This document shows positions 4,940-57,516 of a stretch of 64,000 bases of DNA, in pieces. The stretch comes from Levilactobacillus brevis (GTDB lineage Bacteria > Bacillota > Bacilli > Lactobacillales > Lactobacillaceae), in assembly GCA_003666485.1 (NCBI GenBank), contig CP032931.1:806001-870000 (forward strand), in the 5' to 3' direction. The position numbers and the translations under genes are program-made. Under the pieces are notes generated by a model. The model searched no databases. It was not told the origin of the DNA and saw only the letters and a program-made list of their open reading frames with translations. Within the stretch, counting starts at the first letter, position 1; the number at the start of each line of letters is the position of its first letter.

Positions 4940-5127
4940 AGTTGCCTACGGCTGCCAGGGGTTCCGCCTGCTATGGGGGACACCTCCAGCCTGAGGAGCG
5001 GTCTTCCGGTTCGCTTTGAAGCCTGGCAAAACTCGCCAGGCTTCAAAGTCGCCCCACGCTGTAGGCCGAGAAACAACCTCGGCCAACACCGTCGACACAG
5101 CTGGCTCCACCCCTGGCCTCCTCCGGC
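4940..5127 (-). repeat. Structured intergenic repeat, type A (copy A1)
   Basis: The outer arm GCCAGGGGT (4954-4962) pairs with ACCCCTGGC (5109-5117). Inside, a perfect 14-bp hairpin stem CTTTGAAGCCTGGC / GCCAGGCTTCAAAG (5014-5027 with 5035-5048) lies beside the conserved block CAGCCTGAGGAGCGGTCTTC. Related copies are at 22425, 35441, 39247, 39528 and 42123, with changed but still complementary arms. This copy and B1 fill the convergent gap between the reductase gene and the 5536 gene. Confidence 0.8.
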
Positions 5128-5313: not shown

Positions 5314-5510
5314 ACCACAGGAGCCGAGAGTTCGCTAGAGATGAGTTCAGCTGTGGGAGTTCCCTTAGCGGCACGGTTCACGGCGCTTAGGGAACTGACA
5401 CCTTGGAGACGCGGGTTATCGGCTCCAAGGTGAGGGTCAAGACCGCTCTTCGGCTTGGCCCGGCGCCCTCAGCGTTCCAACTCATCTCTAGCGAACGGTA
5501 AGGCGGCCAG
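5314..5510 (+). repeat. Structured intergenic repeat, type B (copy B1)
   Basis: The outer arms CGCTAGAGATGAGTT (5333-5347) and AACTCATCTCTAGCG (5479-5493) form a perfect 15-bp stem. Three inner hairpins follow: AGTTCCCTTAGCG / GCGCTTAGGGAACT, CCTTGGAG / CTCCAAGG, and GGGTCAAG / CTTGGCCC around the conserved ACCGCTC loop. Other type B copies keep the same plan with different arm sequences. Confidence 0.85.
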
Positions 5511-9820: not shown

Positions 9821-11413
9821 TTGAGTGATACACCAAAGAAGCACAAACTCATTGAATATGCCAATGGGCGGTCACTTGAAGAGATTAACGGTACGGTCAA
9901 AGTACCGAAGGGGAAAGGGTTCTGGAAAACGCTGTTCATGTATTCCGGGCCTGGTGCGTTAGTTGCGGTCGGTTACATGGATCCAGGTAACTGGTCAACG
10001 TCCATCACGGGTGGGCAAAATTTCCAATACTTATTGATGTCGATTATCTTGATCTCAAGTTTGATTGCGATGTTACTGCAATACATGGCAGCTAAACTTG
10101 GTATCGTGAGCCAAATGGACTTGGCCCAGGCGATTCGTGCCCGGACCAGTAAGTCACTAGGCATCGTGTTATGGATCCTAACGGAATTTGCCATTATGGC
10201 AACGGATATTGCGGAAGTGATTGGGGCGGCGATTGCCTTGTATCTGCTCTTCCACATCCCGTTGATTATTGCCGTATTCATTACGGTATTAGATGTTTTG
10301 CTCTTATTGTTACTGACCAAGATTGGGTTCCGCAAGATCGAAGCCATCGTGGTTTGCCTGATTCTAGTGATCCTAGTGGTCTTCGCTTATGAAGTCGCCT
10401 TGTCCAATCCTGACTGGGGTGGCGTCTTCGGTGGCTTGATTCCGAGTGCCAAGACGATTGCGTCAACGCCAAAGATTGGTGGTCAAACGCCAATCAGTGG
10501 GGCCTTGGGGATTATCGGGGCAACGGTCATGCCACATAACCTTTACCTGCATTCAGCGATTTCGCAAACGCGGGAGATTGACCACCACGATGAAGAAGAC
10601 GTGGCCCGGACGGTGAAGTTCACCAGCTGGGATTCCAACATCCAATTGACCTTGGCTTTCTTCGTGAACGCCTTGCTGTTGATCATGGGGGTTGCCGTCT
10701 TCAAGAGTGGGTCCGTCAAAGACCCGTCATTCTTTGGTCTATTCCAAGCCCTGTCAGATACCAGCACGATGAGTAACGGTGTGCTGGCCGGCGTGGCACG
10801 GACTGGCGTGCTGTCGACTTTGTTTGCGGTCGCCTTACTTGCTTCTGGTCAAAACTCAACGATTACCGGGACCTTGACCGGGCAAGTCATCATGGAAGGT
10901 TTCGTCCACATGCGGATGCCACTGTGGTTACGGCGGTTGGTCACGCGGCTGATCTCCGTGATTCCTGTGTTGATCTGTGTCATGTTGACCAGTGGCAAGA
11001 GCGCCATTGATGAACACGAAGCGTTGAATGATTTGATGAACAACTCGCAGGTCTTCTTGGCCTTCGCCTTACCGTTCTCGATGCTGCCATTATTGATGAT
11101 GACGGATAGTCAGGTCGAAATGGGCAAACGATTCAAGAACTCGCTGTGGATCAAGGTACTGGGCTGGTTCTCGGTCTTAGCCTTGACCTACCTGAACCTA
11201 ATCAATATGCCGGCCTCGATTCAAGGCTTTTACGGTGATGGCATCACGGCCGCTCAGACCGCGACAGCCAACTGGATCGCCTACATCTTGGACGCAGCTA
11301 TTTTGATTTTGTTAGTATGGACGATCGTAGAACTGCACAAGGGTAGCAAGCGGTTAGCCGCACGACTGGCGGCGGACCATGCGGACAGTGCGGTTACAGA
11401 TGAGGAGGCTTAG
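9821..11413 (+). CDS. mntH: Nramp-family manganese transporter, copy 1
   Basis: About 530 residues with 11-12 membrane helices. Nramp metal-site motifs are present: DPGNW in TM1 ([16 protein letters not shown]) and [10 protein letters not shown] in TM6 ([18 protein letters not shown]). It imports Mn2+ with H+ and is likely central for oxidative-stress tolerance in a catalase-poor bacterium. I chose the TTG at 9821, which has AGAAGGGGG 8 bases upstream and aligns with the start of copy 2. The downstream usp gene begins 4 bases after the stop, so both are one transcript. The pair is repeated at 12073-14079. Confidence 0.95.
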   Translation: MSDTPKKHKLIEYANGRSLEEINGTVKVPKGKGFWKTLFMYSGPGALVAVGYMDPGNWSTSITGGQNFQYLLMSIILISSLIAMLLQYMAAKLGIVSQMDLAQAIRARTSKSLGIVLWILTEFAIMATDIAEVIGAAIALYLLFHIPLIIAVFITVLDVLLLLLLTKIGFRKIEAIVVCLILVILVVFAYEVALSNPDWGGVFGGLIPSAKTIASTPKIGGQTPISGALGIIGATVMPHNLYLHSAISQTREIDHHDEEDVARTVKFTSWDSNIQLTLAFFVNALLLIMGVAVFKSGSVKDPSFFGLFQALSDTSTMSNGVLAGVARTGVLSTLFAVALLASGQNSTITGTLTGQVIMEGFVHMRMPLWLRRLVTRLISVIPVLICVMLTSGKSAIDEHEALNDLMNNSQVFLAFALPFSMLPLLMMTDSQVEMGKRFKNSLWIKVLGWFSVLALTYLNLINMPASIQGFYGDGITAAQTATANWIAYILDAAILILLVWTIVELHKGSKRLAARLAADHADSAVTDEEA

Positions 11414-11416
11414 CTC

Positions 11417-11848
11417 ATGGCAACGACATTTAAAAAGATTTTAGTAGGGGTCGATGATTCGGCCGATGCGCTGTTGGCGTTTGACTACGCGATTCATCAG
11501 GCCAAACGTGACCAGGCGGAGTTGGTGATCGTCTCCGTCTTGGAACATGACGACATGAACGTGTATCAAGCCTTGGACAGCGACTACGTCCACGGGGAAC
11601 GCGACGAGTTGCGCGATCACGTGCGGGGGTATCAGCAACAAGCCCAAGACGCTGGCGTGGCTGACGTCAAAATGGTGATTGCGGAAGGCGAACCAGGGGA
11701 GACCATCGTCCGCGATGTGATTCCCCACGTACAACCGGACCTGTTGGTGATCGGATCGATTGCCAAGAAGGGTGTGAGTCGCTACTTCGGGAGTCAAGCG
11801 GCCTACATGGCCAAGTACGCCCCCATCTCGGTGATGGTCGTTCGGTAA
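11417..11848 (+). CDS. Universal stress protein, copy 1
   Basis: 143-residue UspA-fold protein, ATP-binding type. Visible elements are the N-terminal KKILVGVDDSADALLAFDYA, the conserved Asp of strand 1, and the C-terminal nucleotide loop GSIAKKGVSRYFGS, a variant of G-x2-G-x9-G-S in which the second Gly is Ala. Its ribosome-binding site GAGGAGG overlaps the end of mntH. The link to an Mn transporter suggests a regulatory or stress-sensing partner. It is closely similar to the 13648 gene. Confidence 0.92.
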   Translation: MATTFKKILVGVDDSADALLAFDYAIHQAKRDQAELVIVSVLEHDDMNVYQALDSDYVHGERDELRDHVRGYQQQAQDAGVADVKMVIAEGEPGETIVRDVIPHVQPDLLVIGSIAKKGVSRYFGSQAAYMAKYAPISVMVVR

Positions 11849-11911
11849 GTCGTCGGATTGATTTTTACGAAATGCGTCAGTGTCACGCATAGATAGTAAA
11901 TTTAGCCAAAC

Positions 11912-11952
11912 TAAGTCGTTAGGCCGCTAAACAGCGGTTTGACGACTTTTTT
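11912..11952 (+). terminator. Intrinsic terminator of mntH-usp unit 1
   Basis: AAGTCGT...GCCGCT / AGCGG...ACGACTT hairpin with a TTTTTT tail. Confidence 0.8.
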
Positions 11953-12072
11953 ACTCCCAAAAGTTAACCACCCATCGGCAAAATCTAACAACTTGGGCAT
12001 TAGCTACGCCAACGACGACCAGTTGCCGTACACTAGCCTTGATCAAAGAGAGTACCCGAAAGGAGCGATTGC

Positions 12073-13647
12073 ATGGCTGACGAAAGGAAACATAAGTTGA
12101 TTGAATACGCCAATGGCCGTTCGCTGGAGGAAATTAATGGGACGGTCAAGGTACCCAAGGATATCGGGTTTTGGAGAACACTGTTTGCGTACTCTGGGCC
12201 TGGTGCGTTGATTGCTGTGGGGTATATGGATCCCGGGAACTGGTCGACATCAATTACCGGTGGGCAAAACTTCCAGTACCTATTGATGTCTGTTATCTTG
12301 ATGTCAAGTTTGATTGCGATGCTGTTGCAGTACATGGCAGCTAAACTTGGCATCGTGAGTCAGATGGATTTAGCGCAAGCCATACGTGCCCGGACCAGTA
12401 AGTCACTAGGTGTTGTGTTATGGATTCTGACGGAATTTGCGATTATGGCCACGGATATTGCGGAAGTTATCGGTGCGGCGATTGCCCTGTACCTGTTGTT
12501 CCACATTCCGTTGGTCATTGCCGTATTCATTACGGTCTTTGATGTGTTGTTACTGTTATTGTTGACCAAGGTCGGCTTTCGTAAGATTGAAGCAATCGTT
12601 GTTTGCTTGATCATGGTCATTCTCTTCGTCTTTGTTTATCAAGTAGCACTGTCTAATCCTAATTGGGGTGGCGTCATTAAGGGCTTGGTCCCAACGACTG
12701 AGACCTTCTCCACTGGTCGGACGGTTGCCGGGATGACACCGTTAAGTGGGGCCTTAGGTATTATTGGGGCCACGGTCATGCCGCACAATTTGTACCTGCA
12801 CTCCGCGATTTCTCAGACGCGGGCCATTGACCACACTGACGAAAATGATGTTGCTCGAACGGTTAAGTTTGCCGGGTTGGATTCAAACATTCAACTGACC
12901 TTCGCGTTCTTTGTGAATGCCTTACTGTTGATTATGGGGGTTGCGGTCTTCAAGACCGGTGCCGTCAAAGATCCTTCCTTCTTCGGCTTGTTCCACGCCT
13001 TGTCAACGACGTCCACGATGAGTAATGGTGTGCTCAGCAGTGTTGCCCGGACCGGTATCTTGTCCACGTTATTTGCCGTTGCCTTACTGGCTTCCGGGCA
13101 AAATTCCACAATTACCGGGACGCTTTCCGGTCAAGTCATTATGGAAGGCTTCGTTCACATGCGGATGCCACTGTGGTTACGGCGGTTAGTCACCCGGTTG
13201 ATCTCCGTCATTCCTGTTCTGATCTGTGTCACGTTGACCAGTGGCAAGAGTGCCATTGCGGAACACGAAGCGTTGAATGATTTAATGAACAACTCACAAG
13301 TCTTCTTGGCGTTTGCCTTACCATTCTCAATGCTGCCATTATTGATGATGACGGACAGCAAGCTGGAAATGGGCGAGCGGTTCAAGAACTCCTGGTGGTT
13401 GAAGATCTTAGGCTGGTTCTCCGTGATTGCCTTGACGGCGTTGAACCTGGAAGGGATGCCGAGTCAAGTCCAGGCCTTCTTTGGGAGTAACGTCACTGGC
13501 AGCGAGTTGGTTTTAGCCAACGGCATCGCGTATCTGCTGATTGCAGCCGTCTTGGGATTGTTAACTTGGACCGTTGTTGAATTGCACTTTGGTAACAAGC
13601 GCTTGGCGGCACAAATCGCTGCTAAGAAGAAAGTAGGGGATGAGTGA
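12073..13647 (+). CDS. mntH: Nramp-family manganese transporter, copy 2
   Basis: 524 residues, near-identical in plan and over long stretches in sequence to the 9821 gene. DPGNW is in TM1 and [10 protein letters not shown] in TM6. Differences gather in the periplasmic loop at about 205-225 ([19 protein letters not shown]) and in the last 60 residues, which suggests an older duplication under constraint in the transport core. The ATG has GAAAGGAG upstream. Its stop codon is directly followed by the ATG of the second usp gene. Confidence 0.95.
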
Positions 13648-22314: not shown

Positions 22315-22690
22315 TGGACTCTCGGCTACAGGAATACTTGCCAGCAATAATTGACTTGTTCCTTGGTAACAGGTAACTTATCAATGAAATTTTAACCCGC
22401 ACAATATTACTGAAAGACATCAACTTGCCGGAGTCAGCCAGGATGGAGCCAGCTGTGTCGACGGTGTTGGCTGAGGTACTTTCTCAGCCTACAGCGTGGG
22501 ACGACTTGAGAGCCTGGCGGGTTTGGTCAGGCTTTCAAGCGAACCGGAAGACCGCTCCTCAGGCTGGAGGTGTTCCCCAGAGCAGGCGGAACCCTGGCTG
22601 ACGCAGGCTCCTGGTTTCCCTAACTTTAGTGGACAGAATACTGTCGTTCCGGAAATCAATGCGGTAAGACTGCTTTCTTTTACTAGTCAA
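22315..22690 (+). repeat. Left copy of a direct repeat flanking the S53 peptidase gene
   Basis: Starts with a type B end fragment (GGTGGACTCTCGGCTACAGG) and carries an AT-rich stretch, the complete type A2 element and TAGTGGACAGAATACTGTCG. The same order recurs at 24663-24868 after the peptidase gene, but without 158 bp of the A element. Identity is visibly partial, so the duplication is not recent. Confidence 0.65.
22425..22612 (+). repeat. Structured intergenic repeat, type A (copy A2)
   Basis: The outer stem GTCAGCCAGG (22433-22442) pairs with CCTGGCTGAC (22593-22602), different from A1 yet still complementary. The inner hairpin CTTGAGAGCCTGGC / GTCAGGCTTTCAAG and the conserved AAGACCGCTCCTCAGGCTGG block are present. 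Confidence 0.8.
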
Positions 22691-30019: not shown

Positions 30020-30216
30020 ATCACCACAGTAGCCGATAGTTCGTCAAATATGAGTTCAGCTGTGGGAGTTTTCTTAGCGGCGTGGTTCTTGCCGCTTAGA
30101 AAACTGGCACCTTAGAGACGCGGGTCATCGGCTCTAAGGTGAGGGTCGAGACCGCCCTGTGGCTCGACCCGGCGCCCTCAGCGTTCCAACTCATATTTGA
30201 CGAACGGTAAGGCGGA
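30020..30216 (+). repeat. Structured intergenic repeat, type B (copy B2)
   Basis: The outer stem CGTCAAATATGAGTT (30042-30056) / AACTCATATTTGACG (30188-30202) is perfect. Inner stems AGTTTTCTTAGCGG / CCGCTTAGAAAACT, CCTTAGAG / CTCTAAGG and GGGTCGAG / CTCGACCC all differ from B1 by paired changes. Confidence 0.88.
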
Positions 30217-34477: not shown

Positions 34478-34680
34478 TCACCCTCCGTAGCCGTGAGCCC
34501 GCCAAATATGGGTTCAGCCGTGGGAGTTACCTTAGCAGCGTTTTTTTGCTGGTTAGGTAACTGGCGTCCTTTGAGACGTGAACTTCGGCTCGAAGGCGAG
34601 GTGTCGAGACCGCATTTTGGCTCGACCCGTCCGCCCACAGCGATCCGACCCATATTTGGCGGGTGGTAGGCGGCCAGCTG
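34478..34680 (+). repeat. Structured intergenic repeat, type B (copy B3)
   Basis: A perfect 16-bp outer stem CCCGCCAAATATGGGT (34498-34513) / ACCCATATTTGGCGGG (34648-34663). The inner hairpin AGTTACCTTAGCAGC / GCTGGTTAGGTAACT keeps the CTTAG / TTAG core. The hairpin loop GAGACCGC is also conserved. Confidence 0.88.
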
Positions 34681-34809: not shown

Positions 34810-35253
34810 TTATTCTTTCGGTTGTGACCAATAGTGGGCCCGCGCTAACAGGTCGCGGGAGCGTTCATCGGCGGGGATGAATCCCCGGTTGAACAGGTGC
34901 TTGAAGTACATCAGGTTGTACAGTGACCCCCACAGTAGGCCTTGAAGCAATGGCCACACGGAAACCGTGAACTGCGCCGTTTGCGCGGTGGGGACCGTCA
35001 TCATCAGTAACATGGATGCCCCGAGGTCGACCCCTAAGATACACAGTAAGTTATACCAGTCGGCACGGAAGATGGCTGGAAATGGGGGGAAGAAGAACAT
35101 GGTCCATGAGAACCCCACCTTAGCGATCCGCATGTTTCCCGTCTCGGGGTTCACGACGGTCGCGTAATTAGGCGGTAACGGCAGTCCTTGAGGGCCGTCA
35201 CCATTTTGATTGTTTTGATCGTCGTCGTTAAAGCCCTTAAAAGGATCTTGCAT
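34810..35253 (-). CDS. DUF2628-like membrane protein
   Basis: 147 residues. An Asp/Asn/Gly-rich head of about 35 residues (FKGFNDDDQNNQNGDG) precedes a conserved VGFSWTMFFFPPFPAIFRADW segment, as in DUF2628 proteins, then two further hydrophobic helices and a basic tail. Function unknown; probably a small membrane-associated protein. I chose ATG 35253 because the longer frame to 35637 would read through repeat A3. The upstream site AGAAAG is weak. Confidence 0.78.
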   Translation of the reverse strand: MQDPFKGFNDDDQNNQNGDGPQGLPLPPNYATVVNPETGNMRIAKVGFSWTMFFFPPFPAIFRADWYNLLCILGVDLGASMLLMMTVPTAQTAQFTVSVWPLLQGLLWGSLYNLMYFKHLFNRGFIPADERSRDLLARAHYWSQPKE

Positions 35254-35440
35254 GTCATTTGCCAACTTTCTAAAAATTTCGTTCGTCCAGACGATATGGT
35301 TAAGACTGATTACCCAATCTGGCGGGTAAAATACCATCCCAGTTCGGTGAGACAGGTTTTTGAAACCCCTAGTCATGATGATCACTAGCAACCATTGGGT
35401 AGTGACAAGACTGGCCCATCTAAGATGGGAGATACAATCA

Positions 35441-35626
35441 TGCCGGAGGAGGCCAGGGGTGTAGCCAGCTGTGTCGACCCAGTTAGCTGGCGTTGTTTGC
35501 CAGGTTACTGGGTGGGGCGACTTGAGAGACTCGCGGTTTTGCGAGGCTTTCAAGCGAACTGGAAGCCCGCGTCTGGGCTGGAAGTGTCCCCCATAGCAGG
35601 CGGAAGCCCTGGCAGCCGCAGGCAAC
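35441..35626 (+). repeat. Structured intergenic repeat, type A (copy A3)
   Basis: The outer arm GCCAGGG (35452-35458) pairs with CCCTGGC (35607-35613). The inner hairpin CTTGAGAGACTCGC / GCGAGGCTTTCAAG around a GGTTTT loop is at 35521-35554. An additional stem-loop CCAGTTAGCTGG lies at 35479-35490. Confidence 0.8.
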
Positions 35627-35704
35627 GGCATCAACAATACTCATTGGGTGTCAGTTTGTCGTTATCTAAAAGTCTAACACGAAAACCAGTTGCTGCCTAT
35701 TAAT

Positions 35705-37231
35705 CTATTGACGGCGGCGTAGTTTAACCACTGCCTCACAGCGCGCGGTCTGCGGCATCATGTCCACGGACTGGATATAATCGACCTGATAATCATGGGT
35801 CAGCTCGACCAAATCCTTGGCCAGCGTCGATGGGTTGCAGGAAATGTAGACGAACTTTTCAGGGCGTACGGCCAGGATGGTTTCAATCAAAGTCGCGTCC
35901 AAACCGGTGCGCGGTGGGTCGACCACGATGGCGTCCGGTCGGAATCCGGCCATGATCCATTTGGGCAGAAGGTCTTCGGCGGTGCCGACTTCGTAGTGGG
36001 CGTTGGTGATGCCGTTGGCCGCCGCGTTGGCATTGGCGTCGGCCACGGCTTCGGGGATGACGTCCATGCCGCGGACTTCTTCAGCCACGTCGGCTAAAGA
36101 CAAACCAATCGTCCCGATCCCGGAGTAGGCGTCGACCACGGTTTCACCCGGTTGTAAGTCCAAGGCCTTCTTGGCTTCGGCGTACAGAACGGTCATTTGT
36201 GACGGGTTCAGTTGTAGAAAGGCGCGAGCGGAGAGCTTGAAGGCCAGGCCGTCTAACTTTTCCGTGATGGCGTCGGCGCCGGCTAACGGCTTCGTTTCGT
36301 CGCCCCAGACCAGCGAGGTTTCACCCGGGTTGACGTTTTGCATGACCGAGGTCACTTGGGGAAGCTCACTAGCGATGCGTTCGAGCAGTTCGCGTTTGTG
36401 CGGTAGCTTTTGGGAGTTGGTGATGAAGACCAGTTGGACGTCGTCGGTGTTGGCAGCAGCACGCACGACCAGCGTTTTGACGATGCCAGACTTGGCTTCT
36501 TCGTCGTAGATGGGCATGTCCAAGTCCTGGAGCATGGCGACCACGGCGCGCATCACGGTCATGGTGACGGGCATTTGGACGGAGCAGGTGGCCAGGTCAA
36601 CGAGATCGTGGCTGCGTTCGGCGTACAACCCGGCTTCGACTTTGCCCTCGGCGTTGCGGCGAACCTGGAATTGCGCCTTGTTGCGGTAGCCGTAGGGGTC
36701 GTCCATCCCCAGTGTTGGGCGTAGATCGTAGTGGCGAAAGCCTTGGGGCTGGTAGCGTTCCAGGGATTGGGCCACGATATCACGCTTGAATTTCAGTTGC
36801 TCGGGGTAGTCTAAATGTTCTAGCTCAAAGCCGCCGACAGCATCGGCATAGCTGTCCCGTGGTTCTACGCGGTGGGGGCTGGCCTTGCGAATCCGGTGGA
36901 CCTTGGCGCGCAGGTAGCGGGTGGCCACGCTGGTGACTTCCACGACGGCCTCTTCATCGGTCAAAGCGCCGGGCACGAACACGGCCATGCGCTTGTAGTA
37001 GCCGATACCTTCGCCGTTGATCCCCATGCGTTTGATGGTCAATGGAAAACGTTGGCCGACTTCCACGGTCACGCCGGGGTTTTCCCGTTCTTGGCGGCGC
37101 CGGTCATTGTAGCCACGGCTAGTCCCGTGATTGTCGCGGTTGCGGTCCCGGTAACTGTGCCGGTCGTTACGGTCATTGTGGGCGTAGCGGTCGCGGCCGC
37201 CACGGTGATTGTGTGATTCAAAATTTGCCAT
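35705..37231 (-). CDS. rlmD: 23S rRNA (uracil-C5)-methyltransferase, RlmD/TrmA family
   Basis: 508 residues. A TRAM domain (about 50-110, FPLTIKRMGINGEGIGYYKRMAVFVPGAL) precedes an RNA-binding middle part and a C-terminal SAM-methyltransferase. SAM-binding motif VVDAYSGIGTIGLSLA, catalytic Cys in VYISCNPSTLAKDL, and VVDPPRTGLD are all present. It methylates C5 of a uridine in 23S rRNA. Residues 5-50 are an unusual Arg/Asp/His/Asn-rich tail, rare in this family and likely RNA-contacting. ATG 37231 has CAGGAG upstream. Confidence 0.93.
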   Translation of the reverse strand: MANFESHNHRGGRDRYAHNDRNDRHSYRDRNRDNHGTSRGYNDRRRQERENPGVTVEVGQRFPLTIKRMGINGEGIGYYKRMAVFVPGALTDEEAVVEVTSVATRYLRAKVHRIRKASPHRVEPRDSYADAVGGFELEHLDYPEQLKFKRDIVAQSLERYQPQGFRHYDLRPTLGMDDPYGYRNKAQFQVRRNAEGKVEAGLYAERSHDLVDLATCSVQMPVTMTVMRAVVAMLQDLDMPIYDEEAKSGIVKTLVVRAAANTDDVQLVFITNSQKLPHKRELLERIASELPQVTSVMQNVNPGETSLVWGDETKPLAGADAITEKLDGLAFKLSARAFLQLNPSQMTVLYAEAKKALDLQPGETVVDAYSGIGTIGLSLADVAEEVRGMDVIPEAVADANANAAANGITNAHYEVGTAEDLLPKWIMAGFRPDAIVVDPPRTGLDATLIETILAVRPEKFVYISCNPSTLAKDLVELTHDYQVDYIQSVDMMPQTARCEAVVKLRRRQ

Positions 37232-37471
37232 TTTATCTCCTGTGACCCGGGTGCCGGTCAACACCAGACACCCGCATCGTTCTTTAGAAATTCAGTCATT
37301 AAGTCCGAAAAGACTTACGGTCTTGAACATTATACCAAACTTTCACGTCCCCCGGGGCGCGCGACCTTGGCCGGCCAAAATTAAAAGCCGTTTTCGTAGG
37401 CGATTGGCTGGGGTTTCGGTACAATGAAAGCAGATGTTTTTGGTGGCTGGTTTGGGGCCACACAGTGTGAG

Positions 37472-37662
37472 CTGGCCGCCTACCGTCCGCCAAATATGGG
37501 TCGGAACGCGGTGGGCGGACGGGTCGAGCCGAAGGGCGGTCTCGACGCCTCGCCTTTGAGCCGGAAAGGCGCGTCTCAAAGACGCCAGTTACCTAAGTGG
37601 CGTGAATCGTGCCACTAAGGGAACTCCCACGGCTGAACCCATATTTGGCGGACTCTCGGCTA
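37472..37662 (-). repeat. Structured intergenic repeat, type B (copy B4)
   Basis: A perfect 16-bp outer stem TCCGCCAAATATGGGT (37486-37501) / ACCCATATTTGGCGGA (37637-37652). It is the only clear copy in a divergent gap, between rlmD and the fetA-like gene. Confidence 0.88.
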
Positions 37663-39246: not shown

Positions 39247-39425
39247 GCCTTGCCAGCCAGACGCGGCCATCCCATGGGGACCGGTCAAAGCCTGAGGAGC
39301 GGTCTTTGGCCTCGCTTTGAGCTGTCCCAAACCCGGCCATCTCAAAGTCGTCCCAGGCTGTAAGGCCGGCAGAAGACGCCGACCTAACACCCTTGTCACG
39401 GGATTCTGCGTCTGGCTGGCAAGGC
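39247..39425 (-). repeat. Structured intergenic repeat, type A (copy A4)
   Basis: A perfect 18-bp outer stem GCCTTGCCAGCCAGACGC (39247-39264) / GCGTCTGGCTGGCAAGGC (39408-39425), unrelated in sequence to other arms. The core AGCCTGAGGAGCGGTCTT is conserved. The inner stem uses CTTTGAG / CTCAAAG. Confidence 0.85.
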
Positions 39426-39527: not shown

Positions 39528-39705
39528 CCGTAGCCGGCCCGGGACGGAACCCTGTGTCGGTGGCGTTAGGCCGGTGGGTTTCCGGTCTTACGGCACGGGA
39601 CGTTTGGGAGACTCACGGGTTTGGTGAGGCTCACAAATGAGCTGGAAGACCGCTCCTCAGGCTGGAAGCGCTCCCCATAGGGTGGGAGTCCCGGGCCGGC
39701 TACGG
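39528..39705 (+). repeat. Structured intergenic repeat, type A (copy A5)
   Basis: A perfect 18-bp outer stem CCGTAGCCGGCCCGGGAC (39528-39545) / GTCCCGGGCCGGCTACGG (39688-39705). Inner hairpin GACTCAC / GTGAGGCTC with a GGGTTTG loop, then GAAGACCGCTCCTCAGGCTGG. Confidence 0.88.
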
Positions 39706-40702: not shown

Positions 40703-40715
40703 TAACTTAACCAGA

Positions 40716-40804
40716 ACACTAGGGGTGTCCACGATTGGGCTGAGATACGGGTGACCGTGATCCCTTAGAACCTGTCAAGTTCAGACTTGCGAAGGGAACG
40801 TGTC
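40716..40804 (+). promoter_or_regulatory. TPP riboswitch (THI element)
   Basis: The invariant parts are all present: ACTAGGGGTG at the start, GGGCTGAGAT, CCCTTAGAACCTG and the closing GCGAAGGGAACGTG. It binds thiamine pyrophosphate. With the terminator directly behind, TPP should stop transcription of thiMDE. Confidence 0.96.
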
Positions 40805-40814
40805 GTGGCACCAA

Positions 40815-40862
40815 CAACGGGCCACCGGTTCACTGATCGTGAGGCGGTTCCCGTTTTTATTT
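40815..40862 (+). terminator. Expression-platform terminator of the TPP riboswitch
   Basis: AACGGGCCACCG / CGGTTCCCGTT hairpin with TTTTTATTTT. Confidence 0.8.
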
Positions 40863-40985: not shown

Positions 40986-41774
40986 ATGAAAGTGACTTTG
41001 CTCGATGAATTGCGGGCGCAAAACCCGATCGTCTTTAACGTTTCTAATTTCGTGACCGTCCAAGACGTGGCCAACGGTATCAACGCGATTGGCGCGTCGC
41101 CCATCATGTCTGAGGAAGTGGCCGAAGCGGACGAAATGGTTGGCTTGGCGGGGGCAGTGTGCCTGAACCTGGGCGCTGTCACGGCCACGCAGGTCACCCA
41201 GATCCGCGCGGTGGGTCAGTCGGCGAACCGCCAACACCGGCCACTGGTCATCGACCCGGTGGCGGTTGGCGCGGTCAAATACCGGATGCAAATGGCGACC
41301 GGCCTGTTGGCTGATTTCCATCCCGACGTGATTCGGGGTAACGCGGGCGAAATCGCGGCGCTGGCCGGTGTCGACTGGCAAGCGAAGGGCATCGACGCCG
41401 GCGAAGGTTCCGGGGATCTGGCGGCCATCGCCAAGGCTTGCGCGCAGAAATTAAAGTGCGTGGTCATCCTCTCCGGTCCCACCGACGTCATCACGGACGG
41501 CGAACGGGTGGTCAAGGTCTTGAACGGAACGAAATTGTTCCAGGTCCACGTCGGTTCGGGTGACATGCTATCCAGCATCGTGGCGGCCTTCTGCGCAGTC
41601 ACCGATGACTACTTCGAGGCGGCCCAAACGGCTTGTCTGGTCTTCGCCGCCATCGGTCAATTGGTCGCAGACGCCACGCCAAACCTGGGTGCCGGCACGT
41701 TCATCATGAAGCTCCTCGACAAGCTCCAAACCGCCACCGTCGCCGAAATCGAAGGCATTGCCGCTTTCGAATAA
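40986..41774 (+). CDS. thiM: Hydroxyethylthiazole kinase
   Basis: 262 residues, ribokinase-like fold. Phosphorylates the thiazole alcohol in thiamine salvage. Family elements: VFNVSNFVTVQDVANGINAIGASP at the start, VIDPVAVGA and HPDVIRGNAGEI in the middle, and the anion-hole loop HVGSGDMLSS. In many ThiM proteins the acid/base position in this loop is Cys (GxGCM); here it is Asp, as in other ribokinases. GGGAGG precedes the ATG. First gene after the riboswitch. Confidence 0.95.
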   Translation: MKVTLLDELRAQNPIVFNVSNFVTVQDVANGINAIGASPIMSEEVAEADEMVGLAGAVCLNLGAVTATQVTQIRAVGQSANRQHRPLVIDPVAVGAVKYRMQMATGLLADFHPDVIRGNAGEIAALAGVDWQAKGIDAGEGSGDLAAIAKACAQKLKCVVILSGPTDVITDGERVVKVLNGTKLFQVHVGSGDMLSSIVAAFCAVTDDYFEAAQTACLVFAAIGQLVADATPNLGAGTFIMKLLDKLQTATVAEIEGIAAFE

Positions 41775-41814
41775 GACTGGTGGTCACCTACCGTGTAAAT
41801 GGCGGAAACCAGAT

Positions 41815-41838
41815 GCCTGCGGCTGCCAGGGGTTCCGC
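41815..41838. repeat. Type A end fragment abutting B9
   Basis: GCCTGCGGCTGCCAGGGGTT matches the outer end of copy A1 (GCCTACGGCTGCCAGGGGTT). The remainder of the element is not here; a type B copy follows, suggesting nesting or deletion. Confidence 0.55.
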
Positions 41839-41850
41839 ATATTGTGGAAA

Positions 41851-42035
41851 CTGGCCGCCTGCCGCGGCGCGAAATCTAGGCTGGAACGCTGGGGGAGGAC
41901 GCCCCGAGCCAAAGGGCGGTCTCGGCGCTTGCTTTGAGCCAGAAAACCACTGTCTCAAAGTCACCAATTTGTCAGCTCAGACCGCTGCCAAATTCCCCGG
42001 CTGAGCCTAGATTTCGCGCCACTCACAGCTCCGGT
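41851..42035 (-). repeat. Structured intergenic repeat, type B (copy B9), inside the thi operon
   Basis: A perfect 16-bp outer stem GGCGCGAAATCTAGGC (41866-41881) / GCCTAGATTTCGCGCC (42005-42020). It belongs with B6 to a B subgroup with the GCGCGAAATCTAGG arm. Confidence 0.85.
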
Positions 42036-42122
42036 GGTGGTCGCTTGCAACGGCTACTTGAGACGGCAACGCTGGTGGTCAGACAATGGGCTGACGTTTG
42101 GTTGCTGAATGTCACAAGTATT

Positions 42123-42307
42123 AGCCGGAGGAGGCCAGGAGTGGAGCCAGCTGTGTCGACGGTGTTGGCTGAGGTCTTTTCTCAGCCTACAGCGTGGGGC
42201 GACTTCGAAGACTCGCGGGTTTGGCGAGGCTTTGAAGCGAACCGGAAGCCCGCTTCTCAGGCTGAAGGTGTCCCCCATAGCAGGCGGAACTCCTGGCAGC
42301 CGTAGGC
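42123..42307 (+). repeat. Structured intergenic repeat, type A (copy A6), inside the thi operon
   Basis: The outer arm GCCAGGAGT (42134-42142) pairs with ACTCCTGGC (42289-42297), one compensated pair away from A1. The inner hairpin has CTCGC / GCGAG with a GGGTTTG loop. Confidence 0.82.
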
Positions 42308-42371
42308 GAGCAGCTCTACACAATTTAAAAGTTATCAAAAAATGCAACAGAACCAGAAGGGATGGGTAACC

Positions 42372-43187
42372 ATGGCAAATGAATTTCCACAAACCTTAAC
42401 GATCGCTGGGACGGACAGCGGTGGCGGGGCCGGCGTGATGGCTGACCTGAAGACGATGCAGGAGCGCAACGTCTTCGCCACGGCCGTTATCGTCGCGGTA
42501 ACCGCGCAAAATACACTGGGCGTGCAGGACTTTATGGCCTTGCCGCAAAAGCTGATCGACGAACAATTCGCGTCTTTGGCGGACGACCTGAAGATTCGGG
42601 CCTGCAAGACGGGGATGCTGGCCGATGCGGCTCACGTGCATGGCGTCGTGGAAAATTTGAAGAAATACCAATTCGGCCCATTGACGGTTGACCCGGTGAT
42701 GATTGCCAAGGGGGGCGCGGCGTTGTTGGCAGATGATGCCGTGGCCACGGTACGTGAGGAATTGGTCCCACTGGCGGATGTGTTGACGCCGAATTTACCG
42801 GAAGCCGAACGCTTGACTGAGCAAAAGATCACCACGGCGGCTGACATGGAACAGGCGGCAGTCGCACTGCAAGACTTGGGGGCCAAGAACATCATCATCA
42901 AGGGTGGTCACGAAGCCACGCCGGACAAGGCCAGTGATTTCGTCTTATTGGCGGACGGTCGGTCATTTTGGCTGACGGCACCACGGGTCGATACGGTGCG
43001 GACTCACGGCACGGGTGACACGCTGTCGTCTTGCATTACCGCCGAACTGGCGAAGGGCAAGGACTTTGAAACGGCCATTCGCATCGGCAAGGACTACGTG
43101 ACGGCGGCCATCGCCAATCCAATCGCGGTCGGCCACGGTCACGGACCGTTGAATCATTGGGCTTACAATCAAGGAGGCGCTGAATAA
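42372..43187 (+). CDS. thiD: Hydroxymethylpyrimidine (phosphate) kinase
   Basis: 271 residues, ribokinase fold. Phosphorylates HMP and HMP-P for thiamine assembly. The start TIAGTDSGGGAGVMADLKTM and the anion-hole RTHGTGDTLSSCI (catalytic Asp) match ThiD. ATG 42372 has AAGGGATGGG upstream; the longer frame lacks it. It overlaps thiE by its stop codon (TAATG). The 597-bp gap from thiM is filled by repeats. Confidence 0.95.
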   Translation: MANEFPQTLTIAGTDSGGGAGVMADLKTMQERNVFATAVIVAVTAQNTLGVQDFMALPQKLIDEQFASLADDLKIRACKTGMLADAAHVHGVVENLKKYQFGPLTVDPVMIAKGGAALLADDAVATVREELVPLADVLTPNLPEAERLTEQKITTAADMEQAAVALQDLGAKNIIIKGGHEATPDKASDFVLLADGRSFWLTAPRVDTVRTHGTGDTLSSCITAELAKGKDFETAIRIGKDYVTAAIANPIAVGHGHGPLNHWAYNQGGAE

Positions 43188-43840
43188 TGTCAGTGACGTT
43201 TGAATCAGGTCTGTTACGGGCCTATTTTGTGGCGGGGAGCCAAGACGTTCCCGGTCAAGATTTGCGCAAGGTGTTAGCGACCATGCTGGATGCCGGTATC
43301 ACGGCGTTTCAGTTCAGAGACAAGGGTGCTAGCACGTTAAATGAGGAGCAGCGGGTGGCGCTGGGAAGCGATTTGCGCGTGCAATGCCATGAGGCCAATG
43401 TGCCATTTATCGTGGATGACGACGTGGATCTGGCCATCCTGCTCAATGCGGACGGCATTCACGTGGGTCAGAGCGACCAGAAGATTCAGCAGGTCATCAA
43501 AAAGGTCGATGGTCGGCGGATGTTCGTGGGGTTGTCGTGCAATACGGCTGAGCAAGTTGCCGCGGCCAACCAGATCGGCGGCATCGACTACATCGGGAGC
43601 GGTCCCATCTATCCGACCGTTTCCAAGGACGACGCGGATCCGGCCATGGGCGTCGATGGTCTGGCCGCACTCGTGCAACAGGCCAACGTGCCCATCGTGG
43701 CGATTGGCGGCGTGACGGTCAAGTCGTTGCCAGCCATTGCGGCGACCGGAGCGGCGGGCGTTGCGGTCATTACCCTGTTGACGCAGAGTACCGACCCGTA
43801 TGCGGACACGCAAGCCATGCGCCAAGCCTTTGCCAAATAG
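43187..43840 (+). CDS. thiE: Thiamine-phosphate synthase
   Basis: 217 residues, TIM barrel. Joins HMP-PP and thiazole phosphate to thiamine phosphate. Pyrophosphate-contacting FRDKGAST, VDDDVDLAILLNADGIHVGQSD and YIGSGPIYPTVSKDDA are present, as is the C-terminal GAAGVAVIT. Last gene of thiMDE, followed by a strong terminator. No de novo thi genes (thiC, thiG) are in view, so this is salvage. Confidence 0.95.
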   Translation: MSVTFESGLLRAYFVAGSQDVPGQDLRKVLATMLDAGITAFQFRDKGASTLNEEQRVALGSDLRVQCHEANVPFIVDDDVDLAILLNADGIHVGQSDQKIQQVIKKVDGRRMFVGLSCNTAEQVAAANQIGGIDYIGSGPIYPTVSKDDADPAMGVDGLAALVQQANVPIVAIGGVTVKSLPAIAATGAAGVAVITLLTQSTDPYADTQAMRQAFAK

Positions 43841-43982: not shown

Positions 43983-44073
43983 CAAAAAACAGGCCCGATT
44001 TCACCGTGTTTAAGTGCGGCAAACCAGACCTGTTCCAAAGTTGAGGAAGCTAGTTGACTAGGGCTAACTTCAC
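43983..44073 (-). ncRNA. Candidate small RNA, minus strand
   Basis: In the 510-bp gap between thiE and umuC, minus-strand TAGCTT (44108-44103), 17 bp, TAGAAT (44085-44080) precede a 90-base stretch. That stretch has a GAAG...CTTC hairpin and a terminator-like stem AACAGGTC / GGCCTGTT with a TTTTTTG tail. No reading frame fits. Seen by eye only. Confidence 0.3.
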
Positions 44074-44295
44074 AAGTACATTCTAACACGACTACCAAAT
44101 AAAAGCTATTAAAATATGACCATTCTGCAATATATTCGTTAATAAAATGTCCAAATGGGTGAGTAAGCTAACTGACCGATTTGGTTTAGGGAATGTCAAA
44201 ATATTTCCCCAAATTGGTTACGACTTACGCCTGCTAATTGTGAGATGAATCACATTTAGCAGATAAAAAACGACAAATTAATTTGCCTGTTCCCC

Positions 44296-44350: not shown

Positions 44351-45649
44351 ATGGACTATTCGCAAGAGCCACACGGTCTGTTTTTTATGATCGACAACAA
44401 GTCCTTTTACGCCAGCGTCGAGAGCGTTGAGCGGGGACTGAATCCGTTACAGTCGATCATCGTCGTGATGTCCGAGGCCGATAACACGGGCTCAGGGCTG
44501 GTCTTGGCAACGTCACCGATGGCCAAGAAACTCTTTGGTATCAGTAATGTGTCGCGCCAATACGAAGTGCCGCATGATTCCCGTATCTTAGTTGTACCGC
44601 CGCGGATGAACTTGTACATTCAAAAGAATCTTGCCATCAATAAAATCTTCCGTGAGTACGTGGCGGATGCCGACCTATTTCCATACTCCATTGACGAATC
44701 CATTTTGGATATGACCAAGTCCTGGCGGTTATTTGGCCGCACACCGGAGGAAGTCGCCCGCAAGATTCAGCTACGGATTCGCCACGAGTTGGGGTTGTAC
44801 ACCACCGTGGGTATCGGGGAGAATCCGGTCCAAGCGAAATTGGCGTTGGACTTGCAGGCCAAACACGACCACGAATTGATCGGTCGCCTGACCTACGAGA
44901 ATTTTCCCCGCTACATCTGGCCAATCACCAACCTGACGAAGGTGTGGAGTATTGGTCGCCGCACCGCCGCGCATCTTCAGCGCCTGGGCATTCACAGTAT
45001 GGGGGAGCTGGCCCACGTGAACCCGTATGAACTGCAGCAGACGATGGGCCTGATTGGCGCGCAACTCTTTGCACTGGCCTGGGGCATCGACCGTAGCCAC
45101 TTTACGCAGGTACGGCCACCCAAGGAAAAGAGCTGGAGCAACTCGCAGGTCTTGCCGCGCGATTATCAGGTCCAACGGGAGATTGAGTTGGTCTTACGAG
45201 AGATTGGCCAGCAAACGACCGCTCGCATGCGTCATCACCACCAACAGACAGGGTGCATCAGCCTGTACGTCGGCTTTGCTTGGGATGGCCAAGCCGACGA
45301 CGGGCGTAGCGGGTTCAATCATAGCCGACGCATTGACCCGACCGACAACGCTCAGACAATCATCCGGGAATTGTTGACGTTGTTTCGGGATAATTGGGAC
45401 GGCCAACCAGTCCGCAACTTGGGCGTGGGGTTGTCGCGTCTGAGTCCCAGTGGGCGCCTGCAACTGGATTTATTTCAGGACCCGCAGCGACAGATCAAGG
45501 ACGATAAATTCGACCGGGTCATCGACGAGTTGCGGGATCGTTTCGGTAAGACCGCCGTGATTCCCGCCAGCAGCCTGCTCAAGGGCGGGACCATGTTGCG
45601 GCGGGCATCGTTAGTCGGCGGTCACAATGGGGGGAATAGCTTTGATTGA
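44351..45649 (+). CDS. Y-family DNA polymerase, UmuC/UvrX-like
   Basis: 432 residues. Translesion polymerase: the first acidic motif is MIDNKSFYASVESVERG, the second YSIDESILDMT, with the helix-hairpin-helix at WSIGRRTAAHLQRLGIHSMGELA. The little-finger domain extends from about 250. It should be induced by DNA damage through the upstream SOS box and copy damaged DNA with low fidelity. The ATG has GAGAGGGGG upstream. Two small genes follow in the same unit, as is usual for UmuC homologues of Firmicutes. Confidence 0.93.
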   Translation: MDYSQEPHGLFFMIDNKSFYASVESVERGLNPLQSIIVVMSEADNTGSGLVLATSPMAKKLFGISNVSRQYEVPHDSRILVVPPRMNLYIQKNLAINKIFREYVADADLFPYSIDESILDMTKSWRLFGRTPEEVARKIQLRIRHELGLYTTVGIGENPVQAKLALDLQAKHDHELIGRLTYENFPRYIWPITNLTKVWSIGRRTAAHLQRLGIHSMGELAHVNPYELQQTMGLIGAQLFALAWGIDRSHFTQVRPPKEKSWSNSQVLPRDYQVQREIELVLREIGQQTTARMRHHHQQTGCISLYVGFAWDGQADDGRSGFNHSRRIDPTDNAQTIIRELLTLFRDNWDGQPVRNLGVGLSRLSPSGRLQLDLFQDPQRQIKDDKFDRVIDELRDRFGKTAVIPASSLLKGGTMLRRASLVGGHNGGNSFD

Positions 45650-46574: not shown

Positions 46575-46768
46575 TCTGGCCGCCTCCGGTCTGCCAAATA
46601 TGAGCCGGAACGCGGTGGGCGGACGGGTCGAGCCAAGGGGCGGTCTCGACACCTCATCTTCGAGCCGAAGACCACGTCTCAAAGACGCCAGTTACCTAAC
46701 CGGCATGAAGCGCGCCGCCAAGGTAACTCCCACGGCTGAGCTCATATTTGACGGACCTCCGGCTACAA
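46575..46768 (-). repeat. Structured intergenic repeat, type B (copy B5)
   Basis: The outer arm GCCAAATATGAGC (46593-46605) pairs with GCTCATATTTGAC (46739-46751) except for one mismatch. First of three type B copies in a 923-bp convergent gap. Confidence 0.82.
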
Positions 46769-46803: not shown

Positions 46804-46990
46804 TCTGGCCGCCTACCGTGGCGCGAAATCTAGGTTGGAACGCTGGGGGAGGACGTTCTGAGCCAAAGCCCGGTCTCAGCACTTGCTTTGAGCCGAAGGC
46901 CACGTCTCAAAGTCACCAATTTACCAGCAAGGAGCGCTGCTAAATTCCCCGGCTGAACCTAGATTTCGCGCCACTCTCGGCTACAAGGGT
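46804..46990 (-). repeat. Structured intergenic repeat, type B (copy B6)
   Basis: A perfect 18-bp outer stem TGGCGCGAAATCTAGGTT (46819-46836) / AACCTAGATTTCGCGCCA (46956-46973). Confidence 0.86.
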
Positions 46991-47057: not shown

Positions 47058-47190
47058 CCACGGCGCTTAGGGAACTGACAACTTGGAGACGCGAACTATT
47101 GGCTCCAAGTTGAGGCCGGAGACCGCTCCTTGGCTCGGGCCGGCGTCCACAGCGTTCCAACTCATGTCTAGCGAACGGTAAGGCGGCCAG
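47058..47190 (+). repeat. Structured intergenic repeat, type B (copy B7), 5'-truncated
   Basis: Begins within the first inner hairpin (GGCGCTTAGGGAACTGAC) and continues to the right outer arm AACTCATGTCTAGCG and AACGGTAAGGCGGCCAG. The left arm is missing, so this copy cannot close its outer stem. Confidence 0.75.
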
Positions 47191-57325: not shown

Positions 57326-57516
57326 CGCCACCGTAGCCGAGAGTTTGCTAGATATGAGTTCAGCCGTGGGAGTTCCCTTAGCAGCTTGCTGGTTAGGGAA
57401 CTGGCACCTTGGAGACGCGGGTTATCGGCTTCAAGGTGAGGGTCAAGACCGCACTTTGGCTTGGCCCGGCGCCCACCGCGTTCCAACTCATATCTAGCGA
57501 ACGGTAAGGCGGACAG
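57326..57516 (+). repeat. Structured intergenic repeat, type B (copy B8)
   Basis: The outer stem GCTAGATATGAGTT (57347-57360) / AACTCATATCTAGC (57485-57498) is perfect. The inner hairpin AGTTCCCTTAGCAGC / GCTGGTTAGGGAACT has a very short loop. GGTCAAGACCGC is conserved. Confidence 0.88.

Follow-up and report, generated by a model that had tools for sequence, protein, structure and literature searches.

The thiM-thiD spacer of Levilactobacillus brevis as the probable remains of a two-armed, MITE-like element

In the thi operon of Levilactobacillus brevis, thiM and thiD are 597 bp apart downstream of a TPP riboswitch, which raises the question of where this spacer came from and what it does to expression of the genes behind it. 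An earlier note, made from the letters alone, had seen repeats inserted here and proposed that they act as read-through RNA elements, internal terminators or mRNA processing sites. We analysed a 64-kb window, the whole stretch of DNA under study, on contig C1 of a 3.10-Mb genome (5 contigs), together with loci of relatives. Our reading is that the spacer is very probably what remains, worn and partly nested, of a mobile element that is non-autonomous (a MITE) and belongs to a high-copy family of Levilactobacillus.

Layout of the thi operon and content of the spacer

Annotation of the window agreed with the operon as described earlier. A single Rfam match places the TPP riboswitch upstream of the thi genes; thiM ends at 41774 and the thiD ATG begins at 42372, leaving a spacer of 597 bp (41775-42371); thiD and thiE overlap by 1 nt, the thiD stop and the thiE start both lying at 43187.

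40711..40815, plus strand: TPP riboswitch aptamer 5' of thiM (Rfam RF00059, 62 bits, E 9.5e-10)
40986..41774, plus strand: thiM, hydroxyethylthiazole kinase (Pfam PF02110, HK, E 3.5e-69)
41815..41850, minus strand: outer-end remnant of an A arm, from another copy (nhmmer, model A 149-184, E 7e-4)
41846..42308: whole two-armed element (collinear with 87-552 of the 629-bp intact copy L135:13025-13653)
41851..42030, minus strand: left arm, type B, its canonical folded strand being the minus strand (nhmmer, model B 1-180, E 9.2e-57)
42031..42123: centre of 93 bp between the arms (gap of the divergent B(-)/A(+) pair)
42124..42307, plus strand: right arm, type A, its canonical folded strand being the thi mRNA strand (nhmmer, model A 1-184, E 5.9e-61)
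42355..42364, plus strand: ribosome-binding stretch of thiD, AGAAGGGATG (by-eye reading of 26 rows)
42372..43187, plus strand: thiD, phosphomethylpyrimidine kinase (Pfam PF08543, Phos_pyr_kin, E 4.1e-90)
43187..43840, plus strand: thiE, thiamine phosphate synthase (Pfam PF02581, TMP-TENI, E 1.5e-53)

The riboswitch also precedes thiM in all ten relatives' loci scanned with Rfam, and neither these loci nor the window gave any other match at gathering score. ThiM of the window is 97% identical to ThiM of L. angrenensis and L. suantsaiihabitans, and AGAAGGGATG or a variant of it was seen by eye directly 5' of thiD in most of 26 rows (25 congeneric loci and the window).

Searches with profiles, each built from 30 copies of the respective arm type in the own genome, recovered the end fragment, the full B and the full A repeat that had been noted in the spacer. 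The two full repeats together align with the intact L. suantsaiihabitans copy L135:13025-13653 (blastn, 70.6% over 487 columns, E 1.5e-48). Both arms occur far above chance: the own genome holds at least 40 A matches (40 of 126 candidates scored) and at least 43 B matches (40 of 149 scored), the query itself included in each case, and the profile searches found 15 arms in the window besides the end fragment. The 13 window arms outside the thi operon, several in divergent pairs and others solitary by the A and B profiles, are 4944-5127 (A-), 5323-5509 (B+), 22427-22608 (A+), 30032-30215 (B+), 34490-34677 (B+), 35442-35623 (A+), 37472-37661 (B-), 39272-39401 (A-), 39528-39687 (A+), 46577-46753 (B-), 46805-46982 (B-), 47073-47189 (B+) and 57335-57515 (B+).

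A and B form a single two-armed unit

Applied to the window, to stretches of four relatives and to fetched loci, the profiles matched arms 238 times in 83 sequences, a count that includes overlapping loci. Arm pairs were made distinct by sequence and neighbours less than 400 bp apart were compared. All 63 opposite-facing neighbours diverge and none converges, in addition to 19 pairs in the same direction. Because of this uniform divergence, the unit of the family is arm-centre-arm, and A and B, each ~180 bp long, are its two divergent arms. The centres span 18-361 bp and are mostly unrelated between copies, except in some related copies; their comparison revealed a weak ~22-nt motif at the inner edge of the arms. 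The thi insert is one such unit, B-centre-A with a centre of 93 bp, and has an older A remnant beside it.

Intact relatives carry the hallmarks of a MITE

Intact relatives of the thi copy measure about 630-640 bp and end in a 14-bp terminal inverted repeat (TIR), CTGAAGGTTGAAAG. The intergenic copy L135:13025-13653, for example, is 629 bp long and has the ends CTGAAGATTGAAAG...CTTTCAACATTCAG. Its site is empty in the window, where TTAAGTG is present once at the orthologous place (~31960); in L. suantsaiihabitans this heptamer flanks the copy on either side. A copy directly behind thiE in L. angrenensis is flanked by AAAATAA. With one-base shifts at each end and a single mismatch allowed, 51 of 64 TIR pairs (200-900 bp; fetched sites) showed a 7-bp target site duplication (TSD), which was perfect in 40; in an earlier set the duplication was present in 29 of 35, as compared to 4.1% of 1056 control flanks paired across copies. 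The 51 TSD-bearing copies range from 277 to 894 bp, with 16 of them at 636-641 bp, and many of the shorter ones are internal deletions that kept TIR and TSD. The copies in relatives combine a TIR, a 7-bp TSD and a short body, and no transposase gene was found in those examined.

The abundance of intact ends differs between genomes. The pattern CTGAANRTTGAAAG occurs at 57, 50, 55 and 26 sites in G003, G026, G009 and G005, respectively, as compared to 1, 0, 1 and 1 sites for the reversed control pattern. Since the own genome has one such site (control: two) and a first survey found a TIR within three substitutions on only 13 of 184 distinct outer flanks (~3, or 1.9%, expected from shuffling), the TIRs in the species of the window have mostly decayed. 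Movement in G009 is recent: identical copies are cut off by the ends of two contigs, 77 bp into the element, and fresh duplications flank another two copies that are nearly identical to each other.

A source of transposase was sought in several ways. By eye, no transposase gene was present among the ORFs of the three TSD-bearing copies longer than 720 bp, one of which contains a gene piece while the two others are slightly longer ones without a long ORF. No autonomous element was seen between the TIRs at 40 sites of G003, at 72 further sites (mostly G009 and G026) and at 20 more in a pair screen, with part of the G026 sites covered; draft assemblies may lack such an element. Two TIR pairs, of 2062 bp in L206 and 1688 bp in L207, were considered as an autonomous transposon and rejected, as they enclose ordinary genes. 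At 14 of the 72 further sites there was no similarity to the arm profiles or to the 629-bp copy within 700 bp; by eye, several of these, in G009, resemble a diverged form of the element and one, in L435, resembles a chance match inside a gene, and two are cut by contig ends. Five of the 40 sites in G003 likewise showed no such similarity. The 629-bp copy had no match in plasmid and phage collections, and the 14-base TIR matched viral contigs as often as expected by chance among the matches listed.

Two individual copies are worth recording. L453 684-1577 (G009, by inference L. fujinensis) is a recent 894-bp copy with matching flanks TTAAATTA and, inside its A arm, a gene piece whose product would be part of a membrane protein, YfhO (Pfam PF09586, E 4e-32). 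L456 is a near-identical copy without this piece. Judged from the two sequences, this looks like the capture of a gene fragment by a bacterial MITE. In G005, the B arm of one two-armed element contains an insertion sequence with two ORFs, which by eye is IS3-like (L139 ~10701-13071; 34930-37300 in joined coordinates).

The family is widespread in Levilactobacillus

Matches to the A arm were obtained in 31 and to the B arm in 24 of 35 genus genomes, the own genome included; copies per genome are lower bounds, with 4 to 40 candidates scored in each. Five Levilactobacillus stretches, together 312 kb, contain 75 arms, which amount to 11.9 kb or ~4% of the sequence and to ~1 arm per 4.2 kb. In a family-wide sample of 201 genomes, a search with the B arm (E up to 1e-6, at most four candidates scored each) found six Levilactobacillus genomes, the own one included, and one genome of another genus, in which the match covers a 35-bp core only. 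Among 25 thi loci from outside Levilactobacillus, weak profile hits appeared in three (A in two, B in two). We found no description of such a family in Lactobacillaceae in the open-licence literature searched. In G162, a genome of another genus of Lactobacillaceae, the B-arm core (query 66-100) is present in at least four places with 91-94% identity, e.g. at C25:12552-12586, which could mean that the family has a distant branch there.

History of the thi site

The thiM-thiD gaps were counted with the stop codon, gap base 1 being position 41772 of the window. The gap is short, 18-33 bp, in 19 other congeneric loci, while seven have a long one of 336-916 bp, namely the window (600) and L. angrenensis, L. 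suantsaiihabitans, L. lanxiensis, L. mulengensis, L. wangkuiensis and L. cerevisiae, which supports the earlier claim that repeats were inserted within the operon. In a tree of ThiM, ThiD and ThiE (26 rows), the seven long-gap species form one clade (100/100) with one change of state. Arms are present in all seven long gaps, but their type and order differ: L. angrenensis has an A(-) joined to a B end; L. suantsaiihabitans an A remnant, a B(-) and a B(+); and L. lanxiensis, L. mulengensis, L. wangkuiensis and L. cerevisiae each one diverged B-like (+) arm. The ribosome-binding stretch before thiD is retained in all seven.

Most simply, these data would be explained by a single acquisition in the ancestor of the seven species, followed by turnover; since the arms differ among the species, this is the simplest reading rather than a proven one. 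None of the seven long gaps, that of the window included, has inserts flanked by a TIR within three substitutions; the one three-substitution match, in L. wangkuiensis, lies inside an arm. No target duplication was seen at the thi insert of the window either. Because both TIRs and the duplication are gone at thi, we infer insertion by a MITE mechanism from the relatives described above. In the scenario that we favour, the element would have entered once, in the ancestor of the clade, and the insert would since have changed through decay, deletion and either new insertions or recombination. As thiD retained a ribosome-binding site of its own and no working terminator came with the element, the insertion may have been tolerated.

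Intact copies often lie behind terminators

According to our own rule, a terminator is a single hairpin of at most -9 kcal/mol before at least 5 T in 8. A terminator-like hairpin with T-tract was found within 30 nt of an end in 25 of 51 intact copies as compared to 30 of 400 controls (Fisher p 1.6e-12), the controls being random intergenic non-element positions of the L. angrenensis and L. suantsaiihabitans stretches only and the elements coming from other genomes as well. Of these 25 copies, 21 are 12-23 nt away from the T-tract, and the other 26 intact copies have no terminator within 30 nt. Earlier sets gave the same picture, both for the terminator neighbourhood (18/33 vs 17/300) and for a terminator within 90 nt (21/33 vs 11/150 random positions). 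Sites behind terminators are probably harmless landing places. The thi operon is an off-type target for the element, because the 18-33 bp between thiM and thiD in short-gap relatives leave no room for a terminator, and none is present there.

The arms fold, and one strand seems to carry the structure

For covariation analysis, 60 arms of each type were picked by hand from diversity lists of 98 A and 102 B arms, which in turn came from 128 A and 135 B distinct full-length arms. RNAalifold predicted a closing stem carrying hairpin branches for the 60 A arms and for the 60 B arms. In the A arms 96.9% of the cells are paired and 41 of 63 pairs have changes on both sides, and in the B arms the corresponding values are 95.7% and 34 of 53, with compensatory changes counted per sequence and not per event. 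None of 500 shuffles reached the observed A or B values, and sliding the partners by 1-3 columns reduced pairing to 32-51%. At pairs with a Watson-Crick majority, G-U outnumbers A-C in A (117 vs 37 cells; 34 vs 10 pairs, p 4e-4) as well as in B (74 vs 22 cells; 23 vs 4 pairs, p 3e-4). When the structure was predicted from the other strand, the result was unchanged for A and weaker for B (80 vs 49 cells, 22 vs 6 pairs, p 0.004). Because G-U exceeds A-C, one strand seems to carry the structure. The bias would point to RNA, or to single-stranded DNA, of the strand leading outwards from the centre; for a cut-and-paste transposon, this would be the strand with the 3' end at each tip.

How is this covariation to be explained? 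Long palindromes can be perfected by hairpin-templated repair, and covariation could thus be a functionless product of template switching in quasi-palindromes, the more so as compensatory changes were tallied by sequence rather than by event. However, repair should treat G-U and A-C alike, and we would not expect the G-U excess observed in both arms from palindrome repair or from cruciform DNA, which makes this explanation distinctly improbable. The same strong covariation and one-sided G-U excess might also suggest that the arms are structured non-coding RNA genes that spread by gene duplication and not as a mobile element. Yet TIRs, exact 7-bp target duplications and the empty site show transposition, and the arms belong to no Rfam family at gathering score in the window and ten relatives' loci; we regard RNA genes as extremely improbable. 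A more specific proposal within the MITE interpretation is that the two divergent copies of a branched structure act as single-stranded nucleic acid on one strand, be it as outward transcripts or as the 3'-tip strand, with a role in mobilization or in aiming the element behind terminators. We put this forward as a possible, if rather unlikely, structure-guided mode of transposition. If it were true, the A arm in the thi mRNA would be in its working orientation.

Consequences for thi expression

In the thi mRNA, the A arm is present in its canonical orientation and the B arm in the other; on this strand, the predicted folds have about -97 kcal/mol (A) and -87 kcal/mol (B). Of the functions suggested earlier, internal termination found no support: a scan detected 4 terminator-like matches as compared to 3.7 expected, the centre contains one weak stem on the mRNA strand (42078-42095, 5 pairs), and the above terminator rule identified one site in one of the seven long gaps, in the loop of an A hairpin. 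The earlier interpretation was right in that repeats were inserted in the operon, was not supported with regard to terminators, and missed that B and A are the arms of one unit. Read-through of the spacer into thiDE appears likely from its sequence. According to PMC3049150, the pneumococcal trp operon has a BOX element between two riboswitches; this element is transcribed, and both riboswitches apparently still function.

Two regulatory alternatives to a passive insert were considered. One is that a promoter brought by the insert frees thiDE from riboswitch control and has them transcribed separately. The centre has a promoter-like match on its plus strand (42058-42087, 9/12) that would fit, but the scanned region has two matches vs 0.9 (sd 1.0) by chance, and the centres are mostly without conservation between copies. 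A thiD promoter in the spacer was consequently rejected as being at chance level, and uncoupling of this kind is very improbable. The other is that the insert has been co-opted to regulate the operon, with the A arm, once folded, serving as RNase site, stabilizer or attenuator that sets thiDE lower or higher than thiM. The presence of the insert in all seven species of the clade and the strong predicted fold of the A arm by itself speak for co-option, and PMC3049150 cites influences that BIME, ERIC and Correia elements have on the mRNAs of operons. However, arms, order and gap length vary by lineage, so that only the presence of the insert is kept, as neutral drift would also give, and similar arms lie at many other places in the genome. 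We therefore regard co-option as unlikely. The likeliest state, as judged from the DNA, is that of a tolerated scar that would be read through with thiMDE, perhaps tuning the mRNA. In this MITE-scar reading, thiM, the folded spacer and thiDE would be transcribed together under control of the TPP riboswitch, and the folded RNA would alter mRNA decay or the thiM:thiDE ratio modestly at most. A role of the arms in mRNA processing, as also proposed in the earlier note, or in mRNA stability is conceivable because they are predicted to be strongly folded on the mRNA strand.

Relation to known repeat elements

Pneumococcal BOX, RUP and SPRITE elements are likewise folded repeats that occur genome-wide and can be co-transcribed, and the BOX copy between two T-box riboswitches of the trp operon is a close parallel to the thi insert in a riboswitch operon (PMC3049150). 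These elements are typically shorter than 200 bp (BOX 67-637 bp; same source), whereas the Levilactobacillus element has about 630-640 bp and two inverted arms. Bacterial MITEs such as Correia elements and Nezha share more features: they are short, non-coding, multi-copy and folded, have TIR and TSD and lack an own transposase; PMC3049150 calls MITEs AT-rich, however, and by eye the Levilactobacillus arms are not. The Levilactobacillus element further differs from bacterial MITEs in its two divergent branched arms with their own covariation, in its variable centre and in the frequent location of intact copies right behind an intrinsic terminator, and no partner IS was found at the TIR sites examined.

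Other classes of elements fit less well. REP/BIME are 20-40 bp palindromes moved by a RAYT (Y1) transposase; they are likewise palindromic intergenic repeats, often in inverted pairs, but the arms described here have ~180 bp, and TIR and 7-bp TSD speak for another type of transposition. To our knowledge, IS200/IS605-derived elements have neither target duplications nor terminal inverted repeats, and TIR and 7-bp TSD thus separate the family from them. Class C group II introns insert just downstream of intrinsic terminators and have a branched RNA structure; placement behind terminators and a branched, RNA-like structure are therefore shared with the Levilactobacillus element. As far as we know, however, these introns consist of intron RNA domains and lack TIR and TSD, both of which are present here, and the window gave no Rfam intron match and no reverse transcriptase was seen.

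The family is of more interest than its thi copy: it joins a clean transposition signature with a preference for sites behind terminators and a strong, apparently strand-specific structural constraint on two arms, and raises the question why a MITE should have folded arms. The thi site itself amounts to a natural experiment, in which a riboswitch operon has hundreds of foldable bases between two genes across a clade of seven species.

A conserved stretch behind thiE

Between thiE and the gene for a Y-family polymerase (44351-45649), the window contains a non-coding stretch, ccgtgtttaagtgcggcaaa...acttcacaagtacattctaacacgac (~43990-44110), that has no Rfam match at gathering score. By eye, L. 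angrenensis, L. suantsaiihabitans and L. lanxiensis share it almost unchanged, whereas the flanking DNA is less alike. It is possibly a regulatory RNA or a leader.
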